Of a stretch of DNA of 28,423 nt, positions 8,935-20,428 are shown piece by piece. The notes below the pieces were generated by a model. That model saw nothing but the letters and a program-made list of their open reading frames with translations, made no database searches and was not told where the DNA came from. How positions within the stretch are numbered: position 1 is the stretch's first letter; the number at the start of each line of letters is the position of its first letter. The position numbers were made by a program, and so were the translations under genes. The DNA is from a virus, in IMG/VR virus record IMGVR_UViG_3300027911_000052, positions 1 through 28,423 of that record, one strand, 5' to 3'.

Positions 8935-9324
8935 TCAGGGGTTGCGACTCCTGGCGCAGGAGCCGGGCCCTTCCGTCCCATCCGGCACGCACGACCAGCC
9001 GGGGTATTGGTTCCCCGCCATGTCCGTCACGGTGAGCGAGAGCGGCACGGTGTAGAGCGTCGAATTGACGCAGCGGCCGCATCCCGTCTTCTCGACAGGG
9101 AAGGTCAGGTCGAATTCCGCATAGCCGCTTGCGGCTTGCTTCACCGTGTATTGCACCGTGCAGCAGGTCTTCCAGCCGGGGGTGGTGGCCTGGACATTGA
9201 ACCCGGGCTCCGCGGTCAACTGCTGTCCAGGGGTGATGACAATGAACTGCGACCAGTCGATGCCGGTAGCCTGCGCTGCGGCCATGCTCATCGCTGCAAG
9301 AACGAACAACAAGAATTTCTTCAT
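8935..9324 (-). CDS. Secreted Cys-rich small protein
   Basis: 129 residues; AAGGAG lies 6 nt before the ATG. Residues 1-19 are a textbook signal peptide (MKK, hydrophobic core, Ala-x-Ala near 17-19). The mature part is beta-rich and carries six cysteines (54, 55, 82, 85, 112, 123), an even number suggesting disulphides formed in the periplasm. There is no lipobox and no recognised domain. It is the last gene of the leftward early operon, far from the structural genes, so a virion role is less likely than an effect on the host envelope, such as altering a receptor or blocking another phage; this is inference. It ends 44 bases from the convergent phosphoesterase gene. Confidence 0.75.
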   Translation of the reverse strand: MKKFLLFVLAAMSMAAAQATGIDWSQFIVITPGQQLTAEPGFNVQATTPGWKTCCTVQYTVKQAASGYAEFDLTFPVEKTGCGRCVNSTLYTVPLSLTVTDMAGNQYPGWSCVPDGTEGPGSCARSRNP

Positions 9325-9363
9325 TTCACGCTCCTTGGTTGGTGCTGCGGTGGGACAACAAAA

Positions 9364-9876
9364 TCAGGTCTTCGAGTCGATGGTGAGGTAGGGCCGGATC
9401 TGGAAGCAGAAAACGATTGGCCCGGGGAGGTCCATCTCGGCGAGCTTGTAGCCAAGGCGGATCTGGTAGCACTTCGTCGCCGACCAGGCGCCGACCTTGT
9501 TCCATTCCCAATACGTCTTCCCCTTGAGCGTCATCCGCACCGAGCAACTGCCCGGCGTGTAGGGGTCCTTCGTCTTGGGGTAGGCAGGGAACGAGTAGGT
9601 GCGCACCGCGTTCGCCGGCGCGATCGGCGCGAGGCGCCAAAAGAGCCCTAGCATCTGGTTGCGCACGCCGAGCCAGTACCACGTCTTGATGGCCTGGCCG
9701 AGGTGCTGGCGCACCCACGCGACCTGCGGCTCGTACATGCCCTGCTCCGGGCCGGGGTCGTCGGGCGTGTTCATCCACCAGGGGATCGGCAGGCCCAGCA
9801 GCGCGAAGGGCGCGACCAGGATCGGGCTCACGAAGAGCACGACGACGTTGAGCACAAAGAGGAGCGGCCAGGTCAT
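9364..9876 (-). CDS. Membrane protein with hydrophobic N-terminus
   Basis: 170 residues. Residues about 3-33 are strongly hydrophobic, enough for one long or two short membrane segments, followed by a Pro/Trp turn ('IPWWMNTPDDPGPE'). The remaining 130 residues are soluble-looking and aromatic-rich (WYWLGVRNQ, YWEWNKVG, FCFQIRPYL). Its start overlaps the helicase stop by 4 bases, so it belongs to the same operon. I recall similar phage proteins of unknown function with the Trp-x-TPDD turn, but give no family name. The function is not known; an inner-membrane accessory role is all the sequence supports. Confidence 0.7.
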   Translation of the reverse strand: MTWPLLFVLNVVVLFVSPILVAPFALLGLPIPWWMNTPDDPGPEQGMYEPQVAWVRQHLGQAIKTWYWLGVRNQMLGLFWRLAPIAPANAVRTYSFPAYPKTKDPYTPGSCSVRMTLKGKTYWEWNKVGAWSATKCYQIRLGYKLAEMDLPGPIVFCFQIRPYLTIDSKT

Positions 9877-11225
9877 TGCTTTCCTTTCATCGCGGATAGG
9901 AGGAGGTCCTGCACTTCGCGCTTCGTCTTCACGCGCTCGATCACGAGCTCGTCGACCGTGTCACGCGCGATGATGTTGTGGACGAACACGGGCCGGTCGT
10001 GGCCAGACTGCATCTGGCGGGTCGGGCCTATACGCTCGAGGATTTGCATTCGCTCCTCGAGGTTCCACCAGTGTCCGAAGTAGACGAGGATGTTTCCGCC
10101 GTCCTGTAGGTTGAGACCGTGACCTGCCGACGCCGGGTGTGCAAACAGCACCGGTATTCGACCGCCGTTCCAATCCGCAATCGTTCGAGGATCAGCGTCC
10201 AGCGGCCGGCCTTTAGGGAACGCCGCCTGCAGGCGGGCGAGGTCCGACTTGAAGTGGTAGGCCACCAGGACGGGCGCGCCAGCAGCTTCCTCCACCACGT
10301 CATCGAGCGCTGCGATCTTTGCATCGTGCACCTCTCTCCATGAACCTTTGTCGTCGATGTAGGCCGCGCCGTTGGCAAGCTGCAAGCACTTCATCGTGCG
10401 GCTCGCGGCGTTGAAGGCCTCGACGCCGTGGCCCTCGATCTCGGCGAACATCTGCCGCTCCATGTCGCGGTAGAGCCCGCGGGCGCGCACCGGCAGGTCG
10501 ACGTAGATGTTGTTGACGATGGGGTCGTTGAGATCGAACCAGTCCTTCGCCTCGATCGTGAGGCACACGTCGCGCAGGAGGTCCTGGATCTCCTCCTGCG
10601 CGTGCTTCTTCGGCGTGATGTTGAATCCGTCGAAAGACTTCTCGAACCAGCGCTGCCGGAAGGAGTCGAACGTGCGCCCCAGGCGCGCGCCGCCATCGAC
10701 GAACCAGAGCTGCCCCCACAGATCCTGCAGCCCGTTGGGGCTGGGCGTGCCGGTGAGTTCGATGAACCGCTCGACCTTGCGGTGCGCGACGCGCCCCAGC
10801 GCCCTCGCCCGCTCAGTGCCCTGCCGGAGCCGGAAACCCTTGAGCTTCGTCGACTCGTCGGCGACCACCGTGCGAAAGGGCCAGCGCTCCCCGAAGTGTT
10901 CGACGAGCCAGGGGAGCTGCTCGAAGTTAGTCGAGTAGAACTTGTGCCCGAGGCGCAGCGCGGAGCGCCGCTCGGGCTCCGAGCCGCACACCGGCATGAT
11001 GGGCGCGAAGCCCCACTTCCTTGCCTCCTCCGGCCAGGTCGTCATCGCCACGCGCAAGGGCGCGACGATGAGCACCGGGTCGTCGTCCACCAGGCGCAGG
11101 GCTTCCAACGCGGAGAGCGTCGAGCCGGTCTTGCCGAGCCCCATGCCTGCCCACACCGCGCACCGCGGCGTTTGCAGGATGTGGTCACGGATGAGCACCT
11201 GGTAGGGTCTAGGCGAGAAGGGCAT
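9873..11225 (-). CDS. SNF2/DEAD-type phage helicase
   Basis: 450 residues with superfamily 2 motifs in order: Q-like 'PRPYQ' at 6-9, Walker A 'GMGLGKT' at 27-33, 'VADEST' (motif II) at 121-126, 'LTGTPSPNG' (motif III) at 158-165, then in the second RecA lobe 'SAGHGLNLQ' (motif V) and 'ERIGPTRQ' (motif VI). These proteins use ATP to translocate on or remodel duplex DNA and are usual in phage replication modules beside VRR-NUC nucleases. The start overlaps the nuclease gene by 17 bases, consistent with coupled expression. The likely role is unwinding or remodelling during replication or recombination, with the nuclease as partner. Confidence 0.88.
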   Translation of the reverse strand: MPFSPRPYQVLIRDHILQTPRCAVWAGMGLGKTGSTLSALEALRLVDDDPVLIVAPLRVAMTTWPEEARKWGFAPIMPVCGSEPERRSALRLGHKFYSTNFEQLPWLVEHFGERWPFRTVVADESTKLKGFRLRQGTERARALGRVAHRKVERFIELTGTPSPNGLQDLWGQLWFVDGGARLGRTFDSFRQRWFEKSFDGFNITPKKHAQEEIQDLLRDVCLTIEAKDWFDLNDPIVNNIYVDLPVRARGLYRDMERQMFAEIEGHGVEAFNAASRTMKCLQLANGAAYIDDKGSWREVHDAKIAALDDVVEEAAGAPVLVAYHFKSDLARLQAAFPKGRPLDADPRTIADWNGGRIPVLFAHPASAGHGLNLQDGGNILVYFGHWWNLEERMQILERIGPTRQMQSGHDRPVFVHNIIARDTVDELVIERVKTKREVQDLLLSAMKGKQ

Positions 11226-11613: not shown

Positions 11614-13653
11614 TCACTCCTTCCGATAGCGATGGGTCTCGTACCCGGCAGCGGCGAGCGGCAGGTCGGGGGCCCAGGTGGGGGGCGTAGCCATGAGGTT
11701 GGCGAGCTCCCGGTGGTCGAGAGCTGCGCCGTCGGGCACTTCGCAGATCACCTCGTCGTGCACCGTGAGCACGATGTCGAATCCCGCGGCCTCGATCGCG
11801 AGCATCGAGTCCTTGAGGACGTGGCACGCGAGCGCCTGGCACGCGTTCTCGAAGAGCTTGCCGCCGTAGGTCTTGAGGCGCTGCCACTTCCTGCTGTACT
11901 GGTTGCGCCCCATGTAGGTGATGCTGCCGTCGACGATCTTGGGGTCGGGGTAGCAAAGCGCGCGGCCCGAGGGGAGCTGCACGCGCAGCCACGCGCCGTC
12001 CCGGCGGATGCGCAGGCGCCCCAGCTCGCGCGTCACGCCTGGCGAGTCGATCGCAGCGAGGCACTCCTCCTCGAGCGGCTTCCAGAGCGAGGAGATCGCC
12101 GCGTGGCCCTGGCGCCAGCCCAGCACGAAGGACTGGCACACGATCCAGGTGTTGTCCGATAGCCCGAGCTGCGCCGCCGGGTCGCGGCCCTTGTCCCGGT
12201 GCCAGGCGAGCATGGAGATCGCCGGGGTGATGAGGTCCTCGGGGATGCGCGACCAGGCCTCGAGCGCGAGGAGGTCGAGGTCAATGCCATAGACGGCCGC
12301 GAAGGTCACGAACGCGCCCACGCCGCCCTGGTAGCCGAGCGCGAGTTCCTGGACCTTGCCGACCTGGCGCTGGACCTTGGTGACATCCTCGACGCGCACG
12401 CCGAAGCTTTTGGAGTAGGCGAGTTTGTAGAGGTCGGGCCCCTGGCCGGCGTCGTAGGCGCGGAAGGCCTCGAGCTTCCAGTCCTCGCCGGCGAGCCACG
12501 CCTGGATGCGCCCCTCGATGTTCGAGAGGTCCGCGACCACGAGCTTGCGCCCGGGGGGAGCGACGATGCAGCCACGGATCGCCGAGCTCGTGGCCGCCAT
12601 CACGGACGGGAAGACGAGATCCGCGGCGCCCGACTTGATGGCGTCGATGTCGTCCTCGGTGACGTCCATCGACGGGCGCGGGAGGTTCTGCGGCTGGAAC
12701 GTGCGGCCGGACCAGCGGCCGGTGCGGCCGGCGCCGGCGAACTGGAGCGAGCCGCGCAGGCGCCCATCTGTGGCCGCGTTCACGAGCGCGCGGTACTTGG
12801 CCGTGCTCGTGGTCGCGCTGTCCAGGCGGATGGTGAGGAGCTCGCGCAGGCCTTCGGGCATGTCGGGATCCGCCAGGCGCCGCTCGATCGTCGAGGCCTG
12901 CAGGTCCGGGAGGTCCACGCCGTGCTCCTCCATGAGGTGCTCGAGGAGCCGGTCGCGCTGCGTGGCGGCGCCCACGGTGCCCTTCGTGAGATCGAGCACC
13001 CGGTCGGCGAGCCGGAGCTGTTCACGATCAACGGCGGCGATGGCGGCCTCAGCCAGGTCGAGGTCGACTGCAAACCCGCGATCGTTGATGCGCTGGTCGA
13101 GGTGCCAGAGCGCGAGCTCGGCGTTGGGGTAGTTCCACGCCGGGAGCTTGGCGTGCACCGCGCGCATCGCCTCCACGTCCATGCGCGCGTACTCGAGGAA
13201 GCGCGCCCAGTGCTCGGGGTAGTCCTCGGGCCGCGCGCGCTCGCCGTTCTTTGGAGAGCAAAAGAGCTTCACGAGCTCCTTTCCCTCCTTCACCTTCGCC
13301 TTGTCCTGGGGGATCTGCAGGACCTGGCAGAGCTCGTCGAGGCCCCCAGGCAGCGCGTGCGACATCGCCTGGACCATCGTGCAACGCCACTTCTCCAGCG
13401 GGATGTGGACGCCGCTCCTTGCGAAGACATTGCGGTCAAACATCGCGTTGTGCGCGATGACTTCGTCTGGTTGATCCTGCGGCCACTCGTAGCGCGATAG
13501 GTCGGCCTTCTTGGCAGTGAGGTCGATGACCTGCGCCGGCCCGTCGTCGATCGCCCACGCCAGCACAATTGGCTCGCAGGCCTCCACGTAGCGGTAGAGG
13601 CCATGCCGGATCGGGACCGGGCTGTAGGTCTCGAAGTCGAGCCAGAGTTTCAC
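11614..13653 (-). CDS. DNA polymerase, family A, with 3'-5' exonuclease domain
   Basis: 679 residues. The N-terminal proofreading domain shows Exo I 'DFET' (D6, E8), Exo II 'AHNAMFD' (68-73) and Exo III 'YARMDV' (155-160). The polymerase domain shows motif A 'VVADLSNIEGR' (D375, E380), motif B 'RQVGKVQELALGYQG' (R429, K433, Y441) and motif C 'TVHDEV' in the last eighth of the protein. There is no 5' nuclease domain, as is usual for phage enzymes. It replicates the phage genome, presumably with the primase-helicase at 18401 and the ssDNA-binding protein at 14684. Motif A carries Leu-Ser-Asn where bacterial Pol I has Tyr-Ser-Gln, a variant I know from temperate phage polymerases. It overlaps the upstream gene by 4 bases. 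Confidence 0.94.
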   Translation of the reverse strand: MKLWLDFETYSPVPIRHGLYRYVEACEPIVLAWAIDDGPAQVIDLTAKKADLSRYEWPQDQPDEVIAHNAMFDRNVFARSGVHIPLEKWRCTMVQAMSHALPGGLDELCQVLQIPQDKAKVKEGKELVKLFCSPKNGERARPEDYPEHWARFLEYARMDVEAMRAVHAKLPAWNYPNAELALWHLDQRINDRGFAVDLDLAEAAIAAVDREQLRLADRVLDLTKGTVGAATQRDRLLEHLMEEHGVDLPDLQASTIERRLADPDMPEGLRELLTIRLDSATTSTAKYRALVNAATDGRLRGSLQFAGAGRTGRWSGRTFQPQNLPRPSMDVTEDDIDAIKSGAADLVFPSVMAATSSAIRGCIVAPPGRKLVVADLSNIEGRIQAWLAGEDWKLEAFRAYDAGQGPDLYKLAYSKSFGVRVEDVTKVQRQVGKVQELALGYQGGVGAFVTFAAVYGIDLDLLALEAWSRIPEDLITPAISMLAWHRDKGRDPAAQLGLSDNTWIVCQSFVLGWRQGHAAISSLWKPLEEECLAAIDSPGVTRELGRLRIRRDGAWLRVQLPSGRALCYPDPKIVDGSITYMGRNQYSRKWQRLKTYGGKLFENACQALACHVLKDSMLAIEAAGFDIVLTVHDEVICEVPDGAALDHRELANLMATPPTWAPDLPLAAAGYETHRYRKE

Positions 13654-14501
13654 GCGAAGGCCCTCACTCGGTAGTCCTTCGATACCCGAGCGCCTACCCC
13701 TGGATTGACGACTGTCGCGTTAATCCAAATATTTCCGCTATCCAGTCGCCGGATGTGCCCGCGCCGGAGATGCTCGCGTGGTGACGAGTGGGTGCCTAAC
13801 GCTGCGTCGTCCGCTTTTGCCTTGGAGGAAAGTACGAGTACGTGGTACCCATCGAACGGGATCTTTCCTCTTGCTATCCGCCGACGGTTCAGCCTCTCCG
13901 GCGGGGGAACGAATTGCGTGCTGACGTTCTTACATGCCAACGCTGCGCAGAGAATCGGGACAGACAGACAGTCGCTAGCGTTTTCAGCGTAGAGCGCCTT
14001 TTCGGGGTCCGGCATTCCGGCTCGCGCCGCCGCTTGGATGTACTGGTTTATTAGACTCACGTCACCAAGGTATCGAAGGCGCGTAGGATTTCTTAGCCAA
14101 GTCGTTCCGCACAGAGAAGGCAGCCAAATATTTCGGTCCTTCCACCAGCTAATGGACCACGCGCACGCAAAGCCGTTAGCCTCTTCCCACGCTACGCAAA
14201 TCCTCTTTGGGCAGTAAGCAACGAGGGCGTTGCCGAACATTTCTCTGTTGTCGCCAGTGTTCTGAAATTCCAAGACTATGGCGGGAAACGGGAGACGCCA
14301 GTTGTCCGGCAACATGTCCGAGTAAGCCAGGTACGTCCCGTCTTCTACGGGCAAAGCCTTTCCGTCGTCGGGAAGAAAGAACTTCGGCGCGTGTCTGAGC
14401 GCCTCAAGCATCCGCTGGTAAATAGGCTGGTTGTGCTTGGCCTGCGAGGCAGCTATGGCCATTGCTGGTATGGCCTCCGCTGCGTAGGAAAAGCGATCCA
14501 T
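13650..14501 (-). CDS. Phage protein of unknown function in an AT-richer segment
   Basis: 283 residues. Its DNA is visibly poorer in GC (some 60-base lines are 45-57%) than the roughly 65% of its neighbours, and codons such as TTT, TTA and AGA are common. The N-terminal half is Trp/Cys/aromatic-rich (WSISWWKDRNIW, TTWLRNP). The C-terminus carries a 'SPREHLRRGHIRRL' block followed by a short strand 'NIWINATVVNPG', an Arg/His motif I recall at the end of many uncharacterised phage proteins. It has no transmembrane segment or known catalytic motif. Despite its composition it overlaps the polymerase ATG by 4 bases and ends up in the same operon, so it is expressed with replication genes. Recent acquisition is likely. 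Confidence 0.75.
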   Translation of the reverse strand: MDRFSYAAEAIPAMAIAASQAKHNQPIYQRMLEALRHAPKFFLPDDGKALPVEDGTYLAYSDMLPDNWRLPFPAIVLEFQNTGDNREMFGNALVAYCPKRICVAWEEANGFACAWSISWWKDRNIWLPSLCGTTWLRNPTRLRYLGDVSLINQYIQAAARAGMPDPEKALYAENASDCLSVPILCAALACKNVSTQFVPPPERLNRRRIARGKIPFDGYHVLVLSSKAKADDAALGTHSSPREHLRRGHIRRLDSGNIWINATVVNPGVGARVSKDYRVRAFA

Positions 14502-16651: not shown

Positions 16652-16978
16652 TCACGCAGCTCCCTGGATGCTGGCGAGGATCGCCGCGTACTGCTCGGGC
16701 TTGGCCTCCGAGAGCTTCGCAATGCCGTGCTTTGCGAGCACCGCCTTCGCCTTCTCGCTGCTTTGCGTTGCGAGCTTCACGAACGGGCCCTTGACCTGGT
16801 CGAAGGTGAGGGCCGCGGCAGCCTCTTGGATCAGGGCCGGGCCTTCCCCTGCGGAGGGGGTCGGCAAGGCGGGCGCCGCGGCTTTCTCCACGCCGGTGAC
16901 CGGCGTCCAGTGGGCCAGCACGGCGCGCAGCGCCTGCAGGGCCTCGGTGTTCTGTTGAATGGCGTGTTCGAGCGACAT
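16652..16978 (-). CDS. Small helical protein of the early replication operon, 108 aa
   Basis: The ATG at 16978 has AGGAGG 7 nt upstream and overlaps the previous stop by 1 base (TGATG); the in-frame upstream ATG at 17017 lies inside the preceding gene. An N-terminal helix (SLEHAIQQNTEALQALRAVL) with heptad character is joined by an Ala/Pro-rich linker to a compact C-terminal helical domain ending 'AKPEQYAAILASIQ'. I know this two-part shape from phage genes next to DUF2800 nucleases. The role is unknown; an accessory replication or recombination factor is plausible. Confidence 0.7.
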   Translation of the reverse strand: MSLEHAIQQNTEALQALRAVLAHWTPVTGVEKAAAPALPTPSAGEGPALIQEAAAALTFDQVKGPFVKLATQSSEKAKAVLAKHGIAKLSEAKPEQYAAILASIQGAA

Positions 16979-17190
16979 CAGTACCTCCTGGGTTTTTGGG
17001 GGACGTAGGGGGTGCAAATCAGATCGGAGCCGCCGACCTCGCGGTAGACAGGGCGCCCCGGGCAGTTGACCGAGCCCCAGCGCTTGGCATCGAGCTCGAG
17101 CACGACGACGTCGTGCTCACCGACCCACATGCCCCACCAGAGGCCGGCCGCGAGCAGCCCGGCGCCGGTGAGCATTGCGCGGGGAGTCAC
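16978..17190 (-). CDS. Small membrane protein, 70 aa
   Basis: Starts at GTG 17190 inside a 4-base overlap with the preceding gene. Residues about 6-24 (Gly/Leu/Ala/Trp) form one membrane segment. The rest is soluble, with two cysteines (about 43 and 59) that could pair if this side faces the periplasm. It is an early gene from the leftward promoter, and no family is recognised. Confidence 0.65.
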   Translation of the reverse strand: MTPRAMLTGAGLLAAGLWWGMWVGEHDVVVLELDAKRWGSVNCPGRPVYREVGGSDLICTPYVPQKPRRY

Positions 17191-17288
17191 CGGCGCACCT
17201 CATGGGTGACCGGGCGGCGCTCCGGGCCTATCGAGTGCGGGTGGTGCGCGGGGTAGTACGAGAACCAGAGAGCGAGGATCCAGGACAT
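17187..17288 (-). CDS. 33-aa peptide, first gene of the leftward operon
   Basis: The ATG at 17288 is preceded by GGAGG with 5-nt spacing, and the TGA overlaps the next GTG by 4 bases. The sequence begins with a short hydrophobic/aromatic run (MSWILALWFSYY), then His/Pro/Arg-rich residues. It is the first translated frame after the putative leftward promoter, so it may be a true microprotein or a leader whose translation governs the operon. The hydrophobic part is too short for a sure membrane span. Confidence 0.58.
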   Translation of the reverse strand: MSWILALWFSYYPAHHPHSIGPERRPVTHEVRR

Positions 17289-17305: not shown

Positions 17306-17357
17306 GTGCGCAAAGTTTTGCGCACAATGACCCAGGTTGTCAAGCAAAATTTTGCGC
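17306..17357. promoter_or_regulatory. Left operator pair over the leftward early promoter
   Basis: Two copies of a dyad of form GCGCAA-N4-TTGCGC: site 1 at 17308-17323 (both half-sites perfect, and the dyad extends to 17306-17325 with one mismatch) and site 2 at 17342-17357 (AAGCAA-AATT-TTGCGC). Their centres are 34 bp apart. Two further copies lie between the repressor and cro genes. A perfect -35 box for a leftward promoter sits between the two sites, so a bound repressor would block it. Site identity is read directly; binding by the repressor or Cro is inferred. Confidence 0.75.
17315..17343 (-). promoter_or_regulatory. Putative leftward early promoter (PL-like)
   Basis: On the minus strand TTGACA (17343-17338) is a perfect -35 box. 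With a 17-bp spacer the -10 position falls on CAAAAC (17320-17315), which is poor, and 18 bp gives AAAACT. The -10 lies within operator site 1, and site 2 touches the -35. Transcription would start about 20 bases before the ATG at 17288 and serve the early operon down to 8935. A weak -10 with a perfect -35 leaves room for an activator. Confidence 0.5.
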
Positions 17358-17389
17358 ACTTGCCGGGTATGACCGGAAAGCGTGCCGGA

Positions 17390-17536
17390 TCAAGGCTTTC
17401 GGGAGAGGTAGTAGATGGCGACCAGCAGCACGGGGAGGCCCGCGATTGGCCGGTCGGTGAGGTAGGCGACGGTTGTGGCGCCGATGAGGGCCGCCACAAA
17501 GATCAGCGTGCTGCGCCAGGTGAAGGTGAAGTTCAT
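17390..17536 (-). CDS. 48-aa two-TM protein coupled to the repressor
   Basis: ATG 17536 overlaps the repressor stop in an ATGA, with a G-rich run (GGTGGGGG) just upstream as ribosome binding site. The peptide has a short polar start (MNFTFTWRS), a first hydrophobic helix (about 11-26), a turn with TDRP (27-30) and a second hydrophobic helix (about 31-44) ending in SRKP. It is the only gene co-directional with and coupled to the repressor, so it should be made in lysogens. In lambda the rex genes hold this position. A role in excluding other phages or in repressor control is inferred from position only. Confidence 0.68.
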   Translation of the reverse strand: MNFTFTWRSTLIFVAALIGATTVAYLTDRPIAGLPVLLVAIYYLSRKP

Positions 17537-17886
17537 TCCCCCACCGGATCCGGTGGCATTTGCCGGTAGAGGTCTTCTACCTTGGCGTGCCAGGCGGCCT
17601 CTGAGGCTGTCAGGACGCGGGCTGGGGGGTTGATGGGGTCGAAGTTCTCCTGCATGAGCTGCCAGCCCTCGAAGCCCATTGCCCGGGCGATCTTGTCGAG
17701 GTTGTCCAGACGTGGCGAGACCTCGGCCGTCTTGCCCCCGGGTCGCTCCTTTGGCTCGGCCATGTTCTTGACCGTGTTCGGTGCGACTCCGGCCGCGGCG
17801 CCCAGCGCCCGGTAGGAGTCGAACCGCGAGGCAGCCAGGGCGATCTGGACGTTGTGTGCCACGGTCTGGACAAGGGTCTTTTTCAT
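17533..17886 (-). CDS. HTH (XRE-type) repressor, probable CI analogue
   Basis: 117 residues from ATG 17886 (an in-frame ATG at 17895 would add MLG). The N-terminal half has an XRE-like helix-turn-helix: 'YRALGAAAGVAPNTVKNM' (25-42) gives the turn and recognition helix, and 'PRLDNLDKIARAMGFEGWQLM' (58-78) the typical closing helices. A linker leads to a short C-terminal helix (94-109). There is no S24/LexA-type self-cleaving domain, so induction by RecA-driven autocleavage is unlikely. Neither start has a ribosome binding site, hinting at leaderless translation in lysogens as for lambda cI. It is divergent from the Cro-like gene with two operators between, the usual repressor arrangement. Confidence 0.8.
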   Translation of the reverse strand: MKKTLVQTVAHNVQIALAASRFDSYRALGAAAGVAPNTVKNMAEPKERPGGKTAEVSPRLDNLDKIARAMGFEGWQLMQENFDPINPPARVLTASEAAWHAKVEDLYRQMPPDPVGE

Positions 17887-17903
17887 CCCGAGCATCGTCG
17901 GGC

Positions 17904-17949
17904 TTGCGCTGCGCAACGTATTGCGCGATGATTGCTCAAAATTTTGCGC
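17904..17949 (+). promoter_or_regulatory. Putative rightward early promoter (PR-like) with two operators
   Basis: TTGCGC (17904-17909) and GATGAT (17927-17932) form a -35/-10 pair with a 17-bp spacer. Operator site 3 (GCGCAA-CGTA-TTGCGC, 17911-17926) fills that spacer, and site 4 (GCTCAA-AATT-TTGCGC, 17934-17949) covers the expected start point, its centre 23 bp from that of site 3. The arrangement fits repression of cro and the primase-helicase by either regulator. The repressor's own leftward promoter must lie in the same 75 bp, but I see no convincing boxes for it. Confidence 0.65.
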
Positions 17950-17961
17950 GTTGGGAGGCAT

Positions 17962-18168
17962 ATGGAACACCCGTCTGTCACGGCTGCCCGGGAGCGGCTG
18001 ATAGCTTGTAAGGGGCATTGGCCCGAGGTGCAGGAGCGGTCGGGGGTATCTCGCTCCTGGCTCACGCAGTTCGCCCGGGGTGATATCGCCAACCCCACCA
18101 TCGACACTCTGCAGGCCCTGAACGACGCCTGCAATCACGTGCTGGGTTCTTTGCAGCGCGCTTCTTGA
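17962..18168 (+). CDS. Cro-like HTH regulator
   Basis: 68 residues; GGGAGG at 17953-17958 fixes the ATG at 17962. A compact helix-turn-helix spans about residues 18-52: 'GHWPEVQERSGVSRSWLTQFARGDIANPTIDTLQAL', with the 'SGVSRSWLTQFARG' turn and recognition helix of the XRE/YdaS class and 'NPTIDTLQAL' closing helix. The size is that of a one-domain Cro protein. Being first in the rightward operon and facing the repressor across operators, it should bind the same sites and favour lytic growth. Specificity is inferred. Confidence 0.8.
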   Translation: MEHPSVTAARERLIACKGHWPEVQERSGVSRSWLTQFARGDIANPTIDTLQALNDACNHVLGSLQRAS

Positions 18169-18177
18169 AAGCCGGCC

Positions 18178-18393
18178 ATGTCTCTGGAACGCAAGGATTT
18201 GCGGATCAAGCTCGACCCTTCCGACCATGAGGGGCTCCGGCTTCTTGCCGAGGCCGAGCGCCTCGAGCTCGCCGAGTGGGCGGAAGAGGTGATCGTGCGG
18301 GAGGTGCGGCGCCGTATCCATGCCGCCAGTGTGCTCGCCGAGAAGGCCAAGCGTGCGGGAATAACCGGGAACGCAATCCCGCCGGGCGTCTGA
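18178..18393 (+). CDS. Small ribbon-helix-helix-like regulator, 71 aa
   Basis: The ATG follows the cro stop by 9 bases. The sequence 'KDLRIKLDPSDHEGLRLLAEAERLELAEWAEEVIVREVRRRI' (residues 6 to 47) has the strand-helix-helix pattern of Arc/MetJ-type DNA-binding proteins, followed by a basic helix (HAASVLAEKAKRAG). I recall similar phage proteins just upstream of primase genes. In lambda the second right gene after cro is the activator CII; a regulatory role here is a fair guess, but the fold is different. Confidence 0.68.
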   Translation: MSLERKDLRIKLDPSDHEGLRLLAEAERLELAEWAEEVIVREVRRRIHAASVLAEKAKRAGITGNAIPPGV

Positions 18394-18400
18394 CCTGCTC

Positions 18401-20428
18401 GTGGCCGCCGTGCTCGAGTTCCCCAGGTGGGGCGCATCCCCTGCCGACTGGGCGCACTGGGACCTGGTGCTCGGCCTTGGCCGGGACCTCCTCCCCGTCG
18501 TCTCCAATCCCAAGGCGACGATCAACCCGACCTCGACCCTCAAGACGCTCGGCAAGACCCCGAGCCGCTACAACGCGCAGCGCCAGGTCGGGGGCATCAA
18601 GGACTGGACCTCTGCGCAATCGACGCCGGCCGAGCTTGAGGCCTGGTCGAAGGTGCCCGATTACGGGATCTGCCTGCAGACCCGCGCCGTGCGCGCGCTG
18701 GACGTGGATGTGCCAGACCCCGAGGAGGCGGTCGCGATCCGCGCGTTCATCGAGGCGCGGCACCGGCTTCCGGCGCGTGTGCGCGCTACCTCCTCGAAGT
18801 TCCTTCTCCTATTCCGATGCGAAGGCACGTTCGGCAAGACGACCATCCGCACCGCGCACGGCATCATCGAGCGCCTCGCGACCGGCAACCAGTGCGTCGT
18901 GGCCGGCGCGCACATCGACAAGGACGGCATCTCGCGCTCGCGCTACGAGTGGGACGGCGGCCTCCCCGAGGAGATCCCTACCCTCGCGCGCCACGAGATG
19001 GAGGCCCTCCTCTTCGACCTCGAGGCCGAGTTCGGCGTTGCGCAGCGCTCCGACTCCTCTGCGTCGCTGCGCACCGGCAAGCTCTCGGATGCCATCACCA
19101 ACGACCCTGTCGCCAAATGGCTGATGGACCAGAGCAAGGTGCTTCGCGCGGAGCGCGATGGGCGCCTGCACATCGAGTGCCCTTGGAAGGAGGATCACAC
19201 CACCGAGGGCGAGACATCCACCACCTATTTCCCGGCCAACACCGGCGGCTACGCCCGCGGGCACTTCGAGTGCCTGCACGCCCATTGCCAGGACCGCAAA
19301 GACGAGGAGTTCCGTGACGCCCTTGGCTACGTCGAGCCCGACCCCTTCGAGGACCTCACGCGAGCGGCCCCATCAGAGGCCTCGCCCGCGCAAACGTCCT
19401 CGCCCACGCCAGCGGCGCAGGGACGCGCCAGGTTCGCATCGACCCCCATCCACGAGCTGCGCGATCGACCGCTCGCCGACTACCACATCAAGGGTGTCCT
19501 CCCGCGCGCAGGCCTGGCCGTTATCTACGGGGAGCCAGGCTCGGGGAAATCCTTCATCGCCTGGGACATGGCCCTCGCGGTTGCGCAGGGCGCGCAATGG
19601 CGCGGCAAGCGCACGAAACAGGGCCGTGTCGTCTATGTAGTCGCTGAGGGGCGCGAAGGCCTCCCAGCCCGCATACGGGCCTACGAGCAGCACTTTGGCG
19701 TCGACATCTCCTCGATCCCCTTCCGCTGCGTCGAGCGAGATGTCCCGAGCCTCATGCAGCCCTCGCAGACCGTGGAGCTTTGCAAGCGCATCACCGAGGA
19801 GGGCGGCGCGGATCTCGTGGTCATCGACACCCTCTCGCAGGTGATGTCCGGGGGCGACGAGAACAGCAGCGATATGACCGTGGTCGTGAAGCACTGCGAC
19901 GCGATCCACCGCGCCACCGGCGCGACCGTGGTGCTCGTCCACCATAGCGGGAAGGACCCATCCAAGGGCGCGCGCGGACATAGCTCCCTCAAAGGGGCGG
20001 TCGATGCGGAGTTCGAGGTTCTCAAAGCCGGCAGCGAGCGCTCGATCTGCGCCACCAAGGTGAAGGATGGGCCCTCTGACGTTGCCTTCGGGTTCACCCT
20101 CACGGTCGTGGAGCTGGGCAAAGACGAGGACGGCGACCCCATCACGAGCTGCGTGTGCACCCACAACGATGCCGGGAAGGTCGCCAAGCGCTCCGAGGTT
20201 CGCGGTGCGGTCGAAAAGGTGGTTTGGGACATCGCCTGCACCACCCAGCAGCTCGTGGGTGGTGCCTTTGAGCTCGACTCCCTGATCTCGGATGCGGTCG
20301 CGCAGCTTGTCCACGACCCCCTCGAAGGCAAGCGGGACACCCGCCGGCAACGTGTTTTGCGCGCCGTAGAAGCACTCCAGCGCACAAAACACCTTGCAAT
20401 AAACGACGGGAAAGTTTTACGTGTTTGA
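18401..20428 (+). CDS. Primase-polymerase / RepA-like helicase fusion
   Basis: 675 residues from GTG 18401 (GTG 18410 also possible). The N-terminal PrimPol (AEP) domain shows 'ALDVDVPD' with the metal-binding D101 and D103, then the conserved 'RATSSKFLLLFR' and 'GNQCVVAG' strands. A Cys/His cluster (C260, H266, C291, H293/H295, C296) could bind zinc. A Ser/Pro-rich linker (320-345) leads to a RecA-like ATPase: Walker A 'GEPGSGKS' (377-384), Walker B 'LVVIDTLSQV' and 'VLVHHSGKD', as in AAA_25/RepA helicases. It should make primers and unwind DNA at the fork. It is the main gene of the rightward operon behind the immunity region and sits right before the origin candidate. Confidence 0.9.
   Translation: MAAVLEFPRWGASPADWAHWDLVLGLGRDLLPVVSNPKATINPTSTLKTLGKTPSRYNAQRQVGGIKDWTSAQSTPAELEAWSKVPDYGICLQTRAVRALDVDVPDPEEAVAIRAFIEARHRLPARVRATSSKFLLLFRCEGTFGKTTIRTAHGIIERLATGNQCVVAGAHIDKDGISRSRYEWDGGLPEEIPTLARHEMEALLFDLEAEFGVAQRSDSSASLRTGKLSDAITNDPVAKWLMDQSKVLRAERDGRLHIECPWKEDHTTEGETSTTYFPANTGGYARGHFECLHAHCQDRKDEEFRDALGYVEPDPFEDLTRAAPSEASPAQTSSPTPAAQGRARFASTPIHELRDRPLADYHIKGVLPRAGLAVIYGEPGSGKSFIAWDMALAVAQGAQWRGKRTKQGRVVYVVAEGREGLPARIRAYEQHFGVDISSIPFRCVERDVPSLMQPSQTVELCKRITEEGGADLVVIDTLSQVMSGGDENSSDMTVVVKHCDAIHRATGATVVLVHHSGKDPSKGARGHSSLKGAVDAEFEVLKAGSERSICATKVKDGPSDVAFGFTLTVVELGKDEDGDPITSCVCTHNDAGKVAKRSEVRGAVEKVVWDIACTTQQLVGGAFELDSLISDAVAQLVHDPLEGKRDTRRQRVLRAVEALQRTKHLAINDGKVLRV
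20352..20392. repeat. Inverted repeat at the end of the primase-helicase gene
   Basis: GTGTTTTGCGC at 20352-20362 faces GCGCACAAAACAC at 20380-20392. The arms match over 11 bp with one extra base in the right arm and are separated by 17 bases. It lies inside the last 80 bases of the coding region, just before the iteron cluster, and could be part of the same origin or a hairpin near the transcript end. Confidence 0.45.

Follow-up and report, generated by a model that had tools for sequence, protein, structure and literature searches.

The viral DNA analysed here carries what is best explained as the immunity region of a BPP-1-like podovirus, with a lambda-like OL/OR switch as working model, a reading to which a probability of about 0.86 is given. 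The original prediction, that matching operators define a lambda-like genetic switch at this place, is supported, as the same layout is found with unrelated operators in BPP-1 and in relatives that are prophages or viruses. As judged from the sequences, the arrangement is normal among these relatives and represents a further example of a known design. The unusual point of the switch is its repressor, which is without the domain through which DNA damage turns such a protein off.

The virus record and its kinship

The window, i.e., the whole stretch of DNA analysed, is the complete virus record IMGVR_UViG_3300027911_000052 (28,423 bases). By sequence comparison, this contig belongs to an uncultured BPP-1/Rauchvirus-like podovirus of bacteria. 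Its connector shows 57-60% identity to its counterparts in BPP-1, Limnohabitans phage DC33, phage zth2-2 and the Manatee Spring podoviruses, and further identities to BPP-1 amount to 62% for the helicase, 56% for the polymerase, 47% for the exonuclease and 45% for the single-stranded DNA-binding protein (SSB). The connector and the replication genes are thus homologous to those of BPP-1, and their order is the same. The sequences make a genus separate from Rauchvirus likely, since the connector identity to BPP-1 alone is just 57-58%.

The record is probably a fragment ending inside the late genes, and at least 10 kb of the genome are probably missing because relatives measure 39-42 kb. A search of the incomplete 28.4-kb record for a tyrosine or serine recombinase (integrase) gave none, and lysogeny is for that reason unproven, though the record is a fragment. 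A Mob_Pre search was silent everywhere, controls included, and was disregarded. For the relatives, gene maps drawn from the longest ORFs were misleading (antisense ORFs, high GC) and were replaced by homology maps. All four dyads described below recur in another contig of IMG/VR, which over 10 kb is 99.8% identical to the window and is too similar to add independent support.

Four operators in two clusters

Four dyads related to GCGCAA-N4-TTGCGC stand at 17308, 17342, 17911 and 17934, with spacings of 34 bp in the left pair and 23 bp in the right pair; these coordinates and distances, given in the original prediction, agree with direct reading and with a mismatch scan. In the left pair, on the minus strand, the proximal operator GCGCAA-AGTT-TTGCGC (17308..17323; GCGCAAAGTTTTGCGC) has no mismatch and covers the expected -10 of the leftward promoter PL, and the distal operator AAGCAA-AATT-TTGCGC (17342..17357; AAGCAAAATTTTGCGC), with two mismatches and a degenerate left half, overlaps the upstream edge of the PL -35. 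In the right pair, on the plus strand, GCGCAA-CGTA-TTGCGC (17911..17926; GCGCAACGTATTGCGC), again without mismatch, fills the spacer of the rightward promoter PR, and GCTCAA-AATT-TTGCGC (17934..17949; GCTCAAAATTTTGCGC), with one mismatch, covers its expected start.

With no more than one mismatch allowed, three copies of the dyad are counted in the 28,423 bases against 0.24 expected, a number reached in 0 of 100 dinucleotide shuffles. At up to three mismatches, it is common in this GC-rich record (58 occurrences against 35 expected), and therefore only the clustering is informative. A search for repeated dyads that was blind to the motif ranked this cluster first between 16 and 20 kb, with a score of 44.6 against 19.5 for the next. 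Within 17.0-18.4 kb, the cluster scored 44.3, whereas 74 shuffles gave a mean of 13.4 and a maximum of 19.9. With a matrix derived from the four operators, a partly circular test, these score 22.5-30.2, and no other position in the record exceeds 12.7. Over the whole record, close copies stand in the two promoter gaps and nowhere else, with a clustering beyond that of shuffles.

The abundance of looser matches could also suggest that the dyads have nothing to do with the regulators, being either repeats for replication or packaging (iterons) or inverted repeats that arose by chance. A relative, L028, does carry repeats inside a putative replication gene. Nevertheless, the close copies in the window are confined to these two gaps, in register with the promoters, and among the phages the dyads change along with the regulators, so that such an origin is most improbable. 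The repeats of L028 (813-1039) consist of TCAACGACCG units in a gene that looks DUF1376-like by eye, and they recall the lambda-type iterons located in an initiator gene. Repeated dyads of both L028 and L066 were rejected as switches, as they lie inside coding sequence.

Two elements had been overlooked in the original prediction. One is an extra half-site TTGCGC at 17904, and the other a weaker fifth dyad (CGCAAGGATTTGCG; 18190-18203, plus strand) at the start of the gene that follows cro. The inner dyad of the latter is exact, but its matrix score is 8.1 against at least 22.5 for the four operators, and its role as a fifth operator is left doubtful.

Promoters and gene layout

A leftward TTGACA promoter had been predicted at the left operator pair, and its -35 is indeed present and perfect (17338..17343, minus strand); in BPP-1 and in the Sterolibacterium prophage L102, TTGACA likewise adjoins an operator at this position. 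Its -10 is poor and lies under the site at 17308. The rightward promoter was likewise correctly described as having one operator in its spacer and the next over its start. This putative PR, made of TTGCGC (17904..17909, plus strand), a 17-bp spacer and GATGAT (17927..17932, plus strand), matches the consensus weakly in both hexamers, and the putative repressor promoter is also a weak match. The geometry of PL and PR relative to the operators matches that of BPP-1 and L102, and the weak consensus of PR is less worrying because this geometry recurs in relatives.

The leftward early operon opens with genes at 16652..17288 (minus strand), with an ATG start at 17288 preceded by GGAGGT (17298-17293). 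Further on come the exonuclease, the SSB, the DNA polymerase, a VRR-NUC protein and the helicase, in the order of BPP-1. From PR, the rightward operon includes cro, a second small regulator matching phrog_7146 (18178..18393, plus strand), a primase-helicase as its first replication gene (18401..20428, plus strand), and then the terminase and the connector. Repressor and cro had both been placed between the operator pairs; this holds for the repressor gene, whereas cro (17962-18168) lies outside them, beyond the right pair. The four clustered sites are real, and it is the placement of cro that has to be amended. Between the pairs stand only the repressor gene and a 48-aa hydrophobic ORF. As expected of a lambdoid region, related operators form two clusters, one on each side of the repressor gene, repressor and Cro are both helix-turn-helix (HTH) proteins, and cro comes first in the right operon.

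The 48-aa hydrophobic ORF (17390..17536, minus strand) begins with an ATG overlapping the repressor stop codon (ATGA), and would be co-transcribed with the repressor. Hydrophobic or lipoprotein-like ORFs occupy the same place in BPP-1 (bbp33) and in L092, L102 and L101. This ORF may represent a gene of the lysogenic operon, possibly a rex-like exclusion gene, conserved in position and not in sequence.

After the helicase, the leftward operon ends with two small ORFs (8935-11225, minus strand), at a place where BPP-1 carries a nucleotide kinase, an excisionase and an integrase. Between the polymerase and the SSB, a 283-aa ORF (13650-14501, minus strand) has no match in Pfam, PHROG or NCBIfam, and is possibly an insertion in the replication operon.

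A repressor predicted to be without peptidase

The repressor gene (17533..17886, minus strand; a further in-frame ATG stands at 17895) encodes 117 aa, modelled by AlphaFold2 as an XRE HTH domain (residues 5-78) followed by a C-terminal helix. No family match was found in Pfam, PHROGs or NCBIfam, and no sequence relative beyond the twin contig turned up in searches of phage, plasmid, IMG/VR and sampled genome sets. One weak match among 369 class-level genomes, L128, was judged spurious as the region codes for other proteins.

The model was obtained from a seven-row alignment of proteins encoded at the same position in relatives. Its mean pLDDT is 77.6, with block means of 82-94 for residues 1-40. 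This alignment of presumed XRE repressors biases the model toward an XRE fold; a run on the single sequence yielded helices in the same order, and its model was discarded for a pLDDT of 50.0. The closest structural neighbour found by Foldseek is Rep of the Salmonella phage SPC32H (PDB 5d4z; E 0.02), followed among others by P22 c2 and SinR, with TM-scores by target length of 0.81 and 0.85, respectively. No match has an E-value below 0.001, and weak E-values are expected for a small common fold. A five-helix XRE, lambda repressor-like fold is thus predicted with moderate confidence.

With 117 aa and a C-terminus modelled as a single helix, the protein does not have the makeup of a cleavable LexA/S24-type cI. 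According to the model, it is without LexA-type peptidase, unlike the cI of BPP-1, and, being a short XRE protein without peptidase domain, it does not resemble lambda CI in the C-terminal part. Its top structural neighbour, SPC32H Rep, is a temperate-phage repressor whose solved chain of about 100 residues is also without a large C-terminal peptidase; the match is weak and concerns a common fold. This Rep binds DNA as a tetramer, and the antirepressor Ant disables it (PMC9638917). No Ant was identified in the window.

Cro and its recognition helix

The Cro-like XRE protein (68 aa; 17962..18168, plus strand), preceded by GGAGG at 17954-17958, carries the recognition helix SRSWLTQFARG. It matches phrog_9425, transcriptional repressor (E 1.2e-9), with HTH_3 just below its cut-off. 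It is also 40% identical to two Cro proteins adjoining a LexA-type cI, those of a Janthinobacterium prophage (L105) and of the viral contig L085, in which a P-I-S-T recognition helix goes with TATGG-type sites.

This pairing of helix and operator extends over 12 phages. An S-x-[SGA]-W helix adjoins CAA/TTG-type operators, some of them imperfect, in eight of them (the window, L135, Bordetella IFTN4, PaMx42, LPPA15, Birtae, Eidolon and Langgrundblatt1), and a P-x-S-T helix stands beside TATGG- or TACGG-type operators in the four others (PAJU2, CF418P1, L105 and L085). The rule was first seen on part of this set, judged by eye and post hoc. Cro probably reads the four dyads, because the helix type goes with the operator type across these 12 phages.

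A small HTH protein adjoining a repressor without peptidase also recalls the Lactococcus phage TP901-1, whose CI is without protease domain and is acted upon by Mor (PMC11149083). The protein encoded at 17962 might then not bind DNA alone and, like Mor, disable the repressor. The two systems are alike in having a peptidase-less CI and a small HTH partner, a likeness that implies no claim of sequence similarity. TP901-1 differs in being a phage of Gram-positive bacteria whose three operators, OL, OR and OD, are each single. The covariation of the recognition helix with the neighbouring operator points to DNA reading, and homologues of the 17962 protein exist without an adjacent repressor gene, so that a switch of this type is rather improbable here.

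The same design in related phages

BPP-1 (Rauchvirus; bbp31-bbp34) provides the closest known system. It has the same left and right operons, with cI transcribed leftward and cro rightward, and the hydrophobic ORF bbp33 right after cI. Five ATGCGT-N2-ACGCAT dyads surround cI, two of them at PL and three at PR. At PL, one operator touches TTGACA and another lies at the -10, and at PR one occupies the spacer upstream of TATAAT and another covers the start. BPP-1 differs in its operator ATGCG-N4-CGCAT, in its cI, a 223-aa LexA/UmuD-type protein, and in the presence of an integrase and an excisionase. It is a proven temperate phage, and its lysogens can be induced with mitomycin C (PMC3240598).

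Comparable clusters are found in the prophage L102, with five TAACCG-N2-CGGTTA dyads, one of which also touches TTGACA; in a marine gammaproteobacterial prophage (L101), with four AGTTGC-N7-GCAACT dyads; and in the viral contig L089, with four TTTGCG-N5-CGCAAA dyads. In L101 and L089, a left operator contains TTGACG. For BPP-1 and each of these three, the cluster exceeds all its own shuffles. In this layout, the repressor gene stands between two dyads beside or over the leftward promoter and one to three dyads at the rightward one. No clear operator cluster was detected by this method in L104, L112 and L124. Nor was there a consistent operator spacing that would speak for cooperativity, since distances range from 17 to 62 bp among relatives with no common helical phase.

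The L102 element, a prophage of Sterolibacterium sp. STA_77 (L102/L127), is like the window in its 121-aa peptidase-less repressor, its overlapping hydrophobic ORF and its OL/OR dyads at TTGACA promoters. It differs by another operator, by a repressor about 23% identical over the alignment and by an integrase, which shares a contig with the connector gene at a distance of about 20 kb and lies on the opposite strand, as in BPP-1. Short repressors stand at the same place in both L102 and L092, and since the L102 contig holds an integrase, such repressors do serve integrating members. BPP-1 and this prophage have primases 88% identical, with repressors of two types at the same place.

In phage lambda, operator clusters flank the repressor gene, cro is the first gene of the right operon and the OR spacing is 23 bp. 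The window shares the two clusters around the repressor, the position of cro and the 23-bp right spacing. It differs from lambda by two sites per side for three, by a left spacing of 34 bp and by a repressor half as long, without peptidase or known cooperativity domain.

Operators of the window's own type also exist elsewhere. Among the viral contigs with tandem GCGCAA-N4-TTGCGC that were read, the repeats are intragenic in L132 and L136, and they adjoin HTH genes in L134 and L135. The left pair of L135 is almost letter for letter that of the window, with AAGCAAAGTTTTGCGC as near copy of the distal operator, degenerate AAGCAA half included, and its right pair, 23 bp apart, directly precedes a 33%-identical cro. 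Two viral contigs without kinship by the proteins tested, L145 (2474-2529) and L147 (1449-1504), each carry three tandem copies 20 bp apart.

L135 has no obvious repressor ORF between its four operators (2354-2716), which brings in a further explanation: the operators may serve Cro alone, as a damper of early genes in a strictly lytic phage, the protein encoded at 17533-17886 being otherwise employed or a relic. Lytic PaMx42 and other Septimatrevirus phages fit this idea, with Cro relatives and similar dyads and no repressor seen alongside. In PaMx42, DoCa1 and Bhz58, the Cro homologue stands directly before the primase and beside a MazG-like gene, with ACAAAATTTTGT upstream of it and no repressor within the 3 kb viewed. 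That no integrase was found in the window would also agree. In the window, however, the exact position of cI in BPP-1 is taken by an XRE gene, which has operators to its left and right and, as in BPP-1, is coupled to a small ORF, and the Sterolibacterium prophage combines an integrase on its contig with a short peptidase-less repressor. A role for Cro alone is thus improbable.

A working model of the switch and its meaning

In the lambda-like model, a dimer of the XRE repressor would bind the four 16-bp operators, two over PL and two over PR, and so shut off both replication operons. The repressor gene would be expressed leftward from the gap between cI and cro. Cro, produced first from the rightward operon, would bind the same operators and shut off the repressor promoter, and would later damp PL and PR, committing the phage to the lytic course. 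As the repressor is without LexA-type peptidase, induction would probably occur by means other than self-cleavage, either through an antirepressor or through binding of Cro to the repressor. More tentatively, and rather on the doubtful side, BPP-1-like phages may exchange their immunity modules freely, with LexA-cleavable and non-cleavable repressors standing in for one another between unchanged OL and OR positions, the window phage being a non-integrating or antirepressor-induced temperate phage with a RecA-insensitive switch.

A map of operators, promoters and regulators is now at hand for an uncultured phage. The set of relatives in which the operator sequence and the Cro helix co-vary helps to predict immunity groups from sequence. 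Because two repressor types stand at the same place despite the 88% primase identity, the pair formed by BPP-1 and the Sterolibacterium prophage makes this family usable for the study of swaps of induction control between phages.
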